Source: Alphaproteobacteria bacterium
Lineage (GTDB): Bacteria > Pseudomonadota > Alphaproteobacteria > UBA8366
NCBI GenBank assembly: GCA_021774335.1
Contig: JAJFJD010000037.1
Coordinates: 1-64,000 of the forward strand
Reading direction: 5' to 3'
Length of the DNA: 64,000 nt
Under the pieces are notes generated by a model. It ran no database searches. It was not told where the DNA came from and was given only the letters and a program-made list of their open reading frames with translations. The position numbers were made by a program, and so were the translations under genes. Shown here piece by piece: positions 12,532 to 17,382 of this stretch. Numbering within the stretch: the stretch's first letter is position 1; each line of letters begins with the position of its first letter.

Positions 12532-12686
12532 CGGGCGGGAAGGCCCCGTAGCGGATATCGCATCCAGGGAGGCTACTCCGGTTCACCGTACTTGGCCATC
12601 GCGCGGCCGGTCCAAGAATTTGCAGTTATCCCGGAAGCCCGCTTTCATGGAGCGGCACACATTTGAAGACTGGTAGGGATCGTATC

Positions 12687-13910
12687 GTGACCGAAATTCC
12701 GACCTCTGCTTTGGCGGGCGTCAAAGTTCTGGACCTCTCGCAATTCGAGGCGGGGCCTGCCTGTACCGAAGTGCTCGCCTGGCTCGGCGCGGAGGTCGTC
12801 AAACTGGAGAACCCGAATGGCGGGGATCAGCTTCGGCGCACGGCGTCTGACGACGGTGTCACCGATTCGCCCTTCTTCATTCTCTACAATGCGAACAAGC
12901 AGAGCGTCACCTGCAACCTCAAATCGCCCGAAGGGCTGCAGTTGGCGAAGGACCTGGCGAGTAAGGCGGACGTCGTGGTGGAGAATTTTGGGCCGGGCGT
13001 CATTGAACGCCTGGGATTGGGATACGACGAAATTCTCAAGGTCAATCCGTCGATCATCTACGCGCAGCTCAAGGGCTTTGCCGAGGGCAGCCCCTACGAT
13101 GATTTCCTGGCCTTCGACATGATCGGTCAGGCGACGGGCGGGATCATGTCGATTACGGGCGAGACGGACGGCAAGCCCATTAAACCGGGACCGAACCTGG
13201 CCGACACCGGGACAGGTATGCTCCTGGCGATCGGTATTCTCGGTGCGTTGTTTCAAAAACAGGCGACCGGTAAAGGCCAGCGCATCTCCGTCGCCATGCA
13301 GGATGCGATGATGCACTACGCCCGGTTCGGGTTTTCCGATCTGCTCGTGACGGGAAAGGCGCCCGGGCGCGCCGCCGAGGGATTCGTGACCGGCGGTAAC
13401 GCGCCGATGGGCGTCTATCCCTGTGCGCCGGGCGGGCCGAACGACTACGTCTATATCTTCGTGAACCGCAGCAACAACCGGCAATGGCACCGGTTGCTGG
13501 AGTTGATCGGCCGGCCTGATCTGGTCGGTGATGACCGCTATGACGCCGCGCCGCAACGGTTCGAGCGAAAGATTGAAATCGAGGAAATGCTCGTGCCGTG
13601 GACCAGCCAACGCACCAAAGTACAGGCGATGGAGGAAATGGGCCGGGCGGGCATTCCGGTTGGCGCGGTCTTCGATTTGAAGGAGCTATCCGAAGAACCG
13701 GACTTCGAGGAACGCGGCGTGTTCCAGTGGATTGATCATCCGGTTCGCGGGCGCATGAAGCTGCTGGGCTGGCCCGTCAAGATGTCCGGCAATCCCGTGA
13801 CGCTCGAATCCGCGCCGCTCCTCGGCGAGCATACGGAAACCGTCCTCGGCGATTGGCTTGGTCTGTCGCCTGACGCCGTAAAGGCGTTACGCGATAAGGA
13901 CGCCGTCTGA
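12687..13910 (+). CDS. Family III CoA-transferase (CaiB/BaiF type)
   Basis: 407 residues from the GTG at 12687, which follows TAGGGA by about 7 nt; an in-frame TTG at 12663 is less likely. Family III marks are the N-terminal VLDLSQFEAGPACT strand, GAEVVKLE, the VENFGPGVIERLGLGY segment, and the catalytic Asp144 in AFDMIGQATGG, which forms the acyl-CoA anhydride in formyl-CoA transferase. It moves CoA between carboxylic acids. Its last 24 nt overlap the 3' end of the convergent molybdoenzyme gene. A second, distinct family III enzyme lies at 51504. Substrate unknown. Confidence 0.9.
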   Translation: MTEIPTSALAGVKVLDLSQFEAGPACTEVLAWLGAEVVKLENPNGGDQLRRTASDDGVTDSPFFILYNANKQSVTCNLKSPEGLQLAKDLASKADVVVENFGPGVIERLGLGYDEILKVNPSIIYAQLKGFAEGSPYDDFLAFDMIGQATGGIMSITGETDGKPIKPGPNLADTGTGMLLAIGILGALFQKQATGKGQRISVAMQDAMMHYARFGFSDLLVTGKAPGRAAEGFVTGGNAPMGVYPCAPGGPNDYVYIFVNRSNNRQWHRLLELIGRPDLVGDDRYDAAPQRFERKIEIEEMLVPWTSQRTKVQAMEEMGRAGIPVGAVFDLKELSEEPDFEERGVFQWIDHPVRGRMKLLGWPVKMSGNPVTLESAPLLGEHTETVLGDWLGLSPDAVKALRDKDAV

Positions 13911-16133
13911 CGCTCGGTCGACGGCGGATACCTGCACGAAATTCGTGTTGTAGGTCATGGCGCCGCTCGGGGCCACGGTGTCGGCCGTCACCGCGTTGGC
14001 GCAGCCCGACATGTCGGTCCCGTCCGCATCCGGCGTAAACCAGGCACCTTCATTGATCGATACGACCCCAAGGGCCACGTCCTCGGTGACGCGCGCCGCC
14101 AGGGATGTTGCGCCATAGGTGTTGAACACCCGCACTTTGTCGCCTTGCGCGATACCGCGCGCCTCGGCGTCCGCCGGGTGCATCCAAACATCGTCCGGAT
14201 CGACCTTGGCGAGTTGCGGCTGGTTGCCATGGATGGAATGTGTGCGCGCCCGCGACTTCGGGCTGCAGAGGCGCAGCGGGTAGGCCGCATCGTCGGGCAG
14301 ATCGGCATGCGGCACCCAGGTCGGGATCGGCGTGATTTCGCCCAGGCCATACGGGTCCGGGTTCTCGCCGAGGAAGCTGGAGTAGATTTCAATCTTCCCG
14401 GAGGGCGTCGCGAATTTGTGGTTCTCCGGATCACGGATCTGTTTGGCGAAGGCGACCGCGTCGTCCGGTTTCGGCATGCGCGCCACGCCCTGTTCCCGGA
14501 AGGCGTCGAAATCGTCAACGGCGTCCTCGGTCAGCTCCCGCAGCCAGGCTTCTTCCGATTGCAGGCTGTATCCGTTGATGCCGACCCGTTGCGCCAGGTC
14601 CGCGTAGATATCCATGTCATTGCGGCATTCATACATCGGCTTAATCGCCTGCTGCATGAAGATGCCGTAATGTCCCGCGCCGGCCCACGGCGTGTGTACG
14701 TCGTTGCGTTCCCAGAAGGTCGTCGCGGGCAACAGGATGTCGGCGTGGCGCGTCGTCGGGGTCAGGAAATGGTCTTGGCCGACGATGAATTCCACATTGT
14801 CCAACGCCTTGGCGAGCTTGCTCGCATTGGAGCATTGGTTGAACAGGTCGCCGCCCGACGAATAGATCAACTTGATGTCGGCCGGGAATCCGCCCGCTTT
14901 GCCCTTCAGGAGCAGGTCTCCCAGGAAGGGCGTCGCCACTTCCGAATCGATGGGGTTCTTGCCCGCCGGCAGCATCTTGATCCCCGCGCGGCCAGTCGCC
15001 CCATTGCTGGGGCCGGCGTTGCCGCCCGGCGTGCCGATGCTGCCCGTCATGGCGGCGAGCGCATAGGCGGCGCGGTGGAACTGTTCGCCGAATGCGGTTC
15101 GGCCTGGTGCGTAGCCGCCATGGATCGCGGCGGGCTTGCTGGTGGCGAAGTCGATGGCGAGTTGCCGGATCGTCTCGGCTGGAATGCCGGTGATCGGGCT
15201 CGCCCATTCCGGTGATTTGACCACGCCGTCGGTGTCGCCCATCAGATACGAAAGATAGGAACTGCCGGCCGGTGCTTCCGGCGGCAAAGTGGCCTCGTCG
15301 AAGCCTTGGACATACCGCTGACAAAAGGCGGCGTCGTGCAGGCCTTCGGCCACGATCACTTGTGCCATGGCGATCAGCGCCGCGGCGTCGGTGGATGGCC
15401 GGATGAATATATGTTCGTCGGTCAGTTGCTTGCTGGTGCGGGTGCGGCGGGGGTCGACGCAGATGATCCGGGTGCCGTTCTCCTTCGCCCATTTCAGATA
15501 CGGCATGGTGCCGGTGCCGAACGTGCCGTCGCCGGGCGACCATCCCCACATGAGAATGAGCTTCGAGTTGACATAGTCCGTCGGTTCGCGCCCGGCCGCC
15601 TTGTAGTTTATGTCATGCCCGAAGGTGTGGCGGATGGCGAAGACCTCGGCCTCGCAGGACATGTTCGACCAAAGATTCGTGCAGCCGCCGAACATGTGGA
15701 GAAAGCGCTTCGCGGCATTGCGGCCGTGCAAGCTCGACGTGCTGCCGGACCGGGAGCCATCGAGGATCGCCGCATTGCCATATTGATCCCGCACCCGCAG
15801 CATCTCGCGGGCGACAGTATCGAGCGCTTCGTCCCAGGAAATCCGTTCGAACTCTCCCGAGCCGCGCGGCCCGGTGCGGCGCATGGGGTATTTGAGGCGG
15901 TCGGGATGATAGACCCGCTCGATCTGGCCGACGCCGCGCGCGCAGGCCGGTAACGGCGGATGGTCCGGGTCCCAGCGGCGTGCATCCGTCGAAATTCGGG
16001 CGATCTTACCGTCGACGACATGCGCGTTGACCACGCAGCGGCCGCCGCAATTGTGGCCGCAGGTGCTTGTCACAACCGTCTCCCCGGCCTTTTCCGCCGG
16101 TCGGGGTGCCTCGTAAATCGTAGCGCCGCTCAT
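13887..16133 (-). CDS. Molybdopterin oxidoreductase, DMSO-reductase family
   Basis: 748 residues from the ATG at 16133. The N terminus binds a [4Fe-4S] cluster through Cys25, Cys29, Cys33 and Cys64 (CGHNCGGRC, then PACARG). The bis-MGD domains follow, with DGTFGTGTMPYLKW, the IICVDPRRT strand, and GxxFEQFHRAAYAL-like and HADILLPATTFWERND segments; the C-terminal MopB-binding domain begins near SPKSRARTHS. Ser159 in NMSCEAEVF is the likely molybdenum ligand by position, with Cys160 next to it. No twin-arginine signal is seen, so the enzyme is probably cytoplasmic, and there is no DmsB/DmsC-type partner. It is last in an operon after the selenoprotein and glutaredoxin genes (103-nt gap), which hints at thiol-linked electron supply. 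Substrate unknown. Confidence 0.9.
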   Translation of the reverse strand: MSGATIYEAPRPAEKAGETVVTSTCGHNCGGRCVVNAHVVDGKIARISTDARRWDPDHPPLPACARGVGQIERVYHPDRLKYPMRRTGPRGSGEFERISWDEALDTVAREMLRVRDQYGNAAILDGSRSGSTSSLHGRNAAKRFLHMFGGCTNLWSNMSCEAEVFAIRHTFGHDINYKAAGREPTDYVNSKLILMWGWSPGDGTFGTGTMPYLKWAKENGTRIICVDPRRTRTSKQLTDEHIFIRPSTDAAALIAMAQVIVAEGLHDAAFCQRYVQGFDEATLPPEAPAGSSYLSYLMGDTDGVVKSPEWASPITGIPAETIRQLAIDFATSKPAAIHGGYAPGRTAFGEQFHRAAYALAAMTGSIGTPGGNAGPSNGATGRAGIKMLPAGKNPIDSEVATPFLGDLLLKGKAGGFPADIKLIYSSGGDLFNQCSNASKLAKALDNVEFIVGQDHFLTPTTRHADILLPATTFWERNDVHTPWAGAGHYGIFMQQAIKPMYECRNDMDIYADLAQRVGINGYSLQSEEAWLRELTEDAVDDFDAFREQGVARMPKPDDAVAFAKQIRDPENHKFATPSGKIEIYSSFLGENPDPYGLGEITPIPTWVPHADLPDDAAYPLRLCSPKSRARTHSIHGNQPQLAKVDPDDVWMHPADAEARGIAQGDKVRVFNTYGATSLAARVTEDVALGVVSINEGAWFTPDADGTDMSGCANAVTADTVAPSGAMTYNTNFVQVSAVDRASDGVLIA

Positions 16134-16236
16134 GTGAATCCAATCGCCATCATCAATTGAAACGAAGACCCGATCATACCCCGGTATCGCCGGCCTCCAA
16201 AACAATCAATGCCGCGGTTTCGGCCCGGTCCACCGA

Positions 16237-16497
16237 TTAGAGGTTCAACAGGTCTTTCACATTCTGCGGATTCAGAGCATCGCCTGCATAAAGCTGACCG
16301 TCGATTTCCAACGCTGGGGTCGACCGGATTCCGGCTTCGTCCAGCCGGTCCTGGGCGTCTTCCTCCATCATGAGGTCGCGCACCTTGTACTCGACATTTT
16401 GCGCGCTCAGAAATTTTTTGAGCGCTTCGCACGGGGCGCAGAGAGGCGATGTGTAGACGATGACCTCTCTGGCCGCCTTGGCTGCGTCATCCCCCAT
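16237..16497 (-). CDS. Glutaredoxin-like protein with CAPC active site
   Basis: 86 residues, thioredoxin fold of glutaredoxin/NrdH size. The redox pair is Cys20-Ala-Pro-Cys23 in YTSPLCAPC; the cis-Pro loop is STPALEIDG near residue 60; GDAL follows. CAPC is unlike the CPYC of classical glutaredoxins and closer to NrdH or thioredoxin-like donors. Its ATG directly abuts the stop codon of the upstream selenoprotein (TAG then ATG, no spacing), so translation is almost certainly coupled. The natural inference is that it re-reduces the Sec-x-x-Cys pair of that protein, or passes electrons from the molybdoenzyme downstream. Confidence 0.88.
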   Translation of the reverse strand: MGDDAAKAAREVIVYTSPLCAPCEALKKFLSAQNVEYKVRDLMMEEDAQDRLDEAGIRSTPALEIDGQLYAGDALNPQNVKDLLNL

Positions 16498-17382
16498 CTA
16501 GACCTTCCCGTCCTCTTTCAAGCGCCGGTACTCTTCCTTCCGGGCCAGCCATTTGGCTTTCGTCTCTTCGTCCTGCCATGGCTGCTCTTCGGAGAAGACG
16601 AGGCGCTTCCACTCGTCGCCGTTGCTCCAGGTATAGCCGGCCTCCCGAGTCGTCATCGAACCCGGCGCTTTTTCAAGCAGGTCGAGCGCTTGCCGGAAGA
16701 TGCCGCGCTGCTGATCGAGATTCCCGGGTTCGCCGCATGGGCTGCCCAAGGGAAAATCGACGAACAGGAAGCGGGCGACCCCGCAATGTTCGACGATGTC
16801 GCGCGCGGCCCCGATTACGACCGTCGGAATGCCATGTTCTTCGATGTATCGGCTGATCAGACTCACGGTCTGATGGCAAACCGGTCAGAGAGGCACCATA
16901 ACAAGCGCGTCGATGCCGTCTTCGCGGCACATTTCCAGTGCTTTCGGCGCTTCCTGCGTCAGCACCTTGCGTTGGCTGTAGTTGTTGTAGGCGCCGTAGA
17001 AACGGTCGGGCATCGATCCGATAACACCGTCGGCGACGGCCTCTCGCATGCGGTCGATCGGGTAATACGCATTGACGTCGTCCAAGTGCGTTGCGTTCCG
17101 GTCGAACGAGGACGTCCGGCTATAGAAGCGTTCCGTCGGGACATCCGTCGGGATCGCGTAGACGCCGCGAAAATCCTCTTCGACGATCGGATCTTCTTCG
17201 GTTTCGGGATCGAACTTCACGGCGACTTCACTCGTCCCGATCAGGCCGACCTTGGATTCCGAAAGGGGTTTCGTCAGCGGGGTGAAGGGCGCGTCGGTGT
17301 GATGGGCCCATTTGTACTCGGTATCGTATCCCTGGCGACGATAGTCATCCGCCGTGCGATCAATGTAGCGCACGTGCTCCAT
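16498..17382 (-). CDS. Selenoprotein of the glycine/D-proline reductase B family (UGA decoded as Sec166)
   Basis: Two abutting frames, 17382-16885 and 16884-16498, are one reading frame interrupted only by TGA at 16887-16885. Read through, the gene gives 294 residues with selenocysteine at 166. The Sec sits in the redox motif U-P-V-C-H-Q-T, the position of selenocysteine (or Cys) in GrdB/PrdB-family selenoenzymes. The upstream half has the family segment SSFDRNATHLDDVN near residues 89-102, PIDRMREAV and IGSMPDRFYG; the downstream half has HGIPTVVIGAARDIVEHCG and FVDFPLGSPCGEPG. Neither half is a complete domain. Start is the ATG at 17382 after a perfect AAAGGAGG. A stem-loop begins 11 nt past the UGA. 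Such enzymes reduce C-N bonds or related substrates. It heads an operon with glutaredoxin and a molybdoenzyme. Frame continuity is direct; Sec insertion is a strong inference; substrate is unknown. Confidence 0.85.
16856..16874 (-). promoter_or_regulatory. Candidate bacterial SECIS stem-loop downstream of the in-frame UGA
   Basis: On the coding strand AUCAGAC (16874-16868) pairs perfectly with GUCUGAU (16862-16856), a 7-bp stem closed by the 5-nt loop CGUGA. The loop starts 17 nt after the UGA, carries a G at its second position, and lies inside the coding region. These are the features expected of bacterial selenocysteine insertion elements that bind SelB. The hairpin also contains the GTG that might otherwise be taken as the start of a separate small gene. 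Binding to SelB is inferred. Confidence 0.7.

Follow-up and report, generated by a model that had tools for sequence, protein, structure and literature searches.

The split gene and its neighbours

On the minus strand of the 64,000-nucleotide stretch of DNA analysed here (the window), one reading frame runs from 17382 to 16498 and is interrupted only by a TGA at 16887–16885 before its terminal TAG (16500–16498). The first-pass annotation had proposed that the two minus-strand frames flanking this triplet (17382–16888 and 16884–16498) are halves of one gene split by the UGA, and that the motif U-P-V-C-H-Q-T lies at a selenocysteine (Sec) site. Both proposals hold: this is a single PrdB-like gene of 294 codons plus stop, beginning at ATG 17382–17380 with a strong ribosome-binding site (AAAGGAGG) six bases upstream, and when TGA is read as U it gives a 294-residue product in which the motif is present within LVMVPL-U-PVCHQTVSL. 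In a scan, 46 TGA codons of the window proved to be flanked by long open frames on either side, six of them with a Cys nearby, and the family motif occurs only at 16887–16885. Sequence comparison confirms one selenoprotein gene, of the sort that ordinary ORF calling cuts in two, whose internal UGA (codon 166, the Sec of the UPVC motif; 16885–16887, minus strand, aligned to TGA or TGC/TGT in homologues) encodes selenocysteine.

The stop codon of the selenoprotein gene is directly followed by the ATG of a glutaredoxin-like gene (16237–16497, minus strand), which encodes 86 amino acids with a CAPC motif (Pfam Glutaredoxin, E 5.5e-13). A CxxC glutaredoxin gene is found immediately downstream in 13 of the 18 clade members that have sequence there. 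Besides Minwuiaceae, these comprise a second family of the order, a more distant alphaproteobacterium and one record that bears the label Betaproteobacteria. It is missing in 5 of the 18, including a Minwuiaceae copy that is 81% identical (L053). Glutathione-disulfide reductase is encoded by the next gene upstream in two relatives (L066 and L067) and nearby in a third (L071). The open-licence PMC papers yielded no description of the selenoprotein–glutaredoxin gene pair. Judging from this gene order, the adjacent CAPC glutaredoxin is the probable reductant partner.

The next gene, in the same direction, encodes a molybdopterin oxidoreductase of the DMSO/selenate reductase family (13887–16205, minus strand; TIGR02166, 607 bits, below the cut-off of 778). 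It could be imagined that the selenoprotein is a Se-dependent reductase in a longer operon with this enzyme, serving for example the reduction of an S-oxide or a selenium oxyanion, which would suit the family of the molybdopterin enzyme. The order selenoprotein–glutaredoxin–molybdopterin oxidoreductase, with its 31-base gap, is also kept within the genus, as the congener (L052/L064) shows. However, the link to the oxidoreductase is absent in four other genomes (G003, G011, G014 and G019) that retain the selenoprotein–glutaredoxin pair, and we regard this reading as unlikely.

Family identity and partner subunits

By profile comparison the product is a member of the GrdB/PrdB superfamily, in a PrdB-like branch outside the PrdB equivalog. 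The PrdB model TIGR04483 matches residues 31–240 (E 2.7e-32), and this match spans the UGA, in agreement with the early observation that both flanks resemble the family. Its score of 112.1 bits is nevertheless well below the cut-off of 300 for the PrdB equivalog, while true PrdB proteins reach 310 and 425 bits. The Pfam model GRDB (PF07355) passes its cut-off of 22 with 30.1 bits (E 3.9e-7), over residues 13–163 only. The initial label 'GrdB/PrdB-family' is thus correct at the superfamily level, but the protein falls outside the PrdB equivalog by score (112 bits against 300) and its partner subunits are missing.

PrdB and the product share 28–29% identity, are collinear and have in common the Sec column and a U-x-x-C-H core. 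They differ in the motif, which is U-P-V-C-H-Q-T here and U-G-T-C-H-R-S in PrdB, and in an N-terminal segment and a C-terminal tail of ~50 residues that are absent from PrdB. With GrdB, GrdF and GrdH (protein B of glycine, sarcosine and betaine reductase; PF07355, TIGR01918) the homology covers the C-terminal half, whereas the N-terminal half of GrdB is missing here (profile positions 196–345 of 347 are matched).

Is the protein then a true D-proline reductase subunit, or one of a glycine, betaine or sarcosine reductase? In proline and glycine reductases the amino acid is activated by a pyruvoyl group, which sits on a PrdA/GrdE-type subunit. In such a system this partner would hold the amino acid in Schiff-base linkage, and the Sec of the present protein would carry out the reductive cleavage. 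PrdB is indeed the best family model, the Sec column coincides with the Sec of clostridial PrdB, and marine surveys classed such genes as proline reductase PrdB. However, apart from the low score, the PrdA model has no match in G000 (the window genome, a draft with an estimated 97% completeness and 7% contamination), G001 or G003, while the two clostridial records used as positive controls gave E 2e-296 and 1.5e-167. GrdE/Gly_reductase (PF09338) and GrdA (PF04723) are likewise absent from G000 and both were found in the positive control G028, which speaks against a glycine-type reductase, including those for sarcosine and betaine. Furthermore, no prdC or prdA adjoins the gene as in Terrisporobacter; the place beside it is taken by the glutaredoxin gene instead. 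Since the pyruvoyl-bearing subunit is missing from the genome, D-proline or glycine reductase chemistry appears unlikely for this protein, and that it is a genuine subunit of one of these reductases we consider very improbable.

Two observations were made in the control genomes. In G028, an alphaproteobacterial draft, a GrdB-like match lies side by side with GrdA (which has a TGA) and a GrdE-type subunit (C421:22344–25355; L073, L076), probably a complete glycine-reductase-type locus unless it is contamination. In Peptoclostridium acidaminophilum (NZ_CP007453.1, 258978–260267; L077) a PrdA match is found just before prdB, at a place where the plasmid table lists no gene.

Decoding of the UGA

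Homologues were found in 32 of the 114 related genomes, most of them with exactly one internal stop, a TGA. The first-pass annotation had asked whether the UGA column holds Sec or Cys in the family: among the UPVCHQT-type homologues examined, codon 166 is TGA in about 30 and TGC or TGT (Cys) in the remaining four. The TGA is shared at this column by relatives ranging from 93% to about 30% identity and is therefore not there by chance. The aligned codon is TGA also in the annotated clostridial PrdB genes of Terrisporobacter and Peptoclostridium, and TGC in two annotated alphaproteobacterial homologues. In the tree, three Cys rows form a single clade nested among the Sec forms, a topology consistent with one Sec-to-Cys change. 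One Cys-type homologue (L044; G113 C321:7851–8657) has an internal TAG and is either a pseudogene or an assembly error.

Downstream of the UGA lies a SECIS hairpin (16856–16874, minus strand) with a 7-bp stem, AUCAGAC/GUCUGAU, and a 5-nt loop, CGUGA, spaced 17 nt from the UGA to the loop. It stays within all the limits of the published model for bacterial SECIS elements, as quoted in PMC13188914, and the region folds with −12.9 kcal/mol for 50 nt. Because the thermodynamic z-score of this single sequence is not significant (z −1.45), the hairpin was analysed by covariation; an Rfam search at the site gave no match. Standard pairs fill 97.9% of the stem cells in 27 distinct Sec-type sequences, compared to only 15–31% for slid controls. 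Double-changed cells number 15 against 5.1 expected (0 of 500 shuffles), with compensatory changes at two stem pairs (U-A/C-G and G-C/A-U). Codon usage points the same way: the Ser codon of the 3′ arm is AGT in all 27 Sec homologues that have Ser there, although eight window genes use AGT for 6.5% of their Ser residues, and two more homologues, with Cys or Gly at this position, keep the third-base T. The four Cys homologues have AGC at this Ser codon and a broken stem. The selenocysteine reading is supported by this SECIS, which covaries among the Sec homologues and disappears in those with Cys.

The Sec machinery is also in place, as a search for selA, selB, selC and selD, suggested at the outset, found all four in the window genome. 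Genes selA, selB and tRNA-Sec (anticodon UCA; 75.7 bits in Rfam, called SeC(tca) by ARAGORN) are clustered on contig C4, and the scores are 598 bits for SelA, 454 for SelB and 419 for SelD. The selD on C38 (C38:4650–5579) is itself a Sec gene, its catalytic position being encoded by TGA (GGGUGCKVAP). A second selD (C62:27362–28279) is of the Cys type and lies within an open frame of 763 residues that may be a fusion. Among the genomes with UGA copies 26 of 28 have SelA above cut-off, against 5 of 86 others (Fisher p 1.7e-18), and the four Cys-only genomes all lack it; the two UGA-copy genomes in which SelA was not found (G007 and G053) are only 64% and 77% complete.

That the UGA is instead an ordinary stop, a disabling mutation or sequencing error leaving downstream a gene remnant or an independent gene that begins at GTG 16866, draws on the in-frame GTG 18 bases past the UGA, due to which the ORF caller lists a 122-aa ORF, but is hardly credible given that the same UGA recurs in about 30 relatives from several families of Alphaproteobacteria, that coding conservation runs on across it, that a covarying SECIS and full Sec machinery are present, and that the cut would take away the invariant UPxC motif. 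Decoding of the UGA as selenocysteine is, on these comparative grounds, strongly supported.

Proposed mechanism and relation to marine 'PrdB'

In all 36 sequences compared, P167 and C169 are unchanged and position 166 is U or, in some, Cys; in the predicted structure (pLDDT 92.4) Sec166 sits at the N-terminus of helix 167–182, right after strand 159–163. Searches of the PDB returned nothing above chance with either Foldseek (best E 0.01) or VIA-align (best Z 8.9, for LacI-type binding folds), and by sequence the family has no member of solved structure, as the only match there under E 0.001 was to 30 residues of a designed protein.

We propose, with reasonable but not full confidence, that this Minwuiaceae-like alphaproteobacterium produces a PrdB-like selenoprotein, its UGA decoded with SelB and the SECIS, which acts as a stand-alone selenol-thiol oxidoreductase recharged by glutaredoxin and glutathione. 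Aided by the hairpin 17 nt downstream, SelB and Sec-tRNA-Sec would decode codon 166, the UGA, and the product would carry its U-x-x-C redox pair where the helix begins. The selenolate would then attack a small electrophilic substrate, a selenenyl-sulfide would form with Cys169 in a resolving step, and the selenol would be regenerated by the CAPC glutaredoxin next door, which would itself draw on glutathione and glutathione reductase. Unlike D-proline and glycine reductases, such a PrdB-like enzyme would have no need of a pyruvoyl subunit. The reductant and the catalytic cycle we infer only from operon structure and gene neighbourhood.

Genes of this kind are already known, as UxxC 'PrdB' was reported in 2005 and 2008. 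In the Sargasso Sea it ranked third in abundance among known selenoprotein families, with 42 genes, and all such genes in that data set were misannotated (PMC1088965); the Global Ocean Sampling study then listed 235 'PrdB' UxxC selenoprotein sequences (PMC2398784), which places the family near the top of the selenoproteins by abundance there too. Our gene shares with these the marine origin, PF07355 and the UxxC motif, while they are metagenomic sequences filed as proline reductase (PMC1088965, PMC2398784). Matched by their descriptions, they likely belong to the same subfamily. What is added here is this lineage's version, paired with a glutaredoxin and without the proline reductase partner: although the family commonly goes by the name of proline reductase, the subunit enabling proline reduction is missing in this lineage. 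It is conceivable, at a little under even chances in our estimate, that the abundant marine 'PrdB' largely represents a distinct PrdA-free reductase family that has its own glutaredoxin and glutathione reductase and uses a small molecule as substrate in bacteria with many paralogues. The conserved glutaredoxin pairing offers a concrete lead to what this selenoprotein family, among the commonest in the ocean, really acts on.

Related loci are found elsewhere in the window genome. It contains four longer GrdB-type paralogues with a UGA (U-P-x-C-T motif). Besides the window gene, a search for the GrdB/PrdB superfamily gave six matches with an in-frame TGA, at C49:14870–15727, C36:43170–43934, C1:187204–187803 and C1:220472–221071 and, in tandem, at C55:117783–118304 and C55:119017–119613. 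CoA-transferase family III (CaiB/BaiF) genes (L057:5484–6752 and L058:7083–8423) adjoin the two other PrdB-like paralogues of this genome, and one is also found near the window gene, at 12663–13910.
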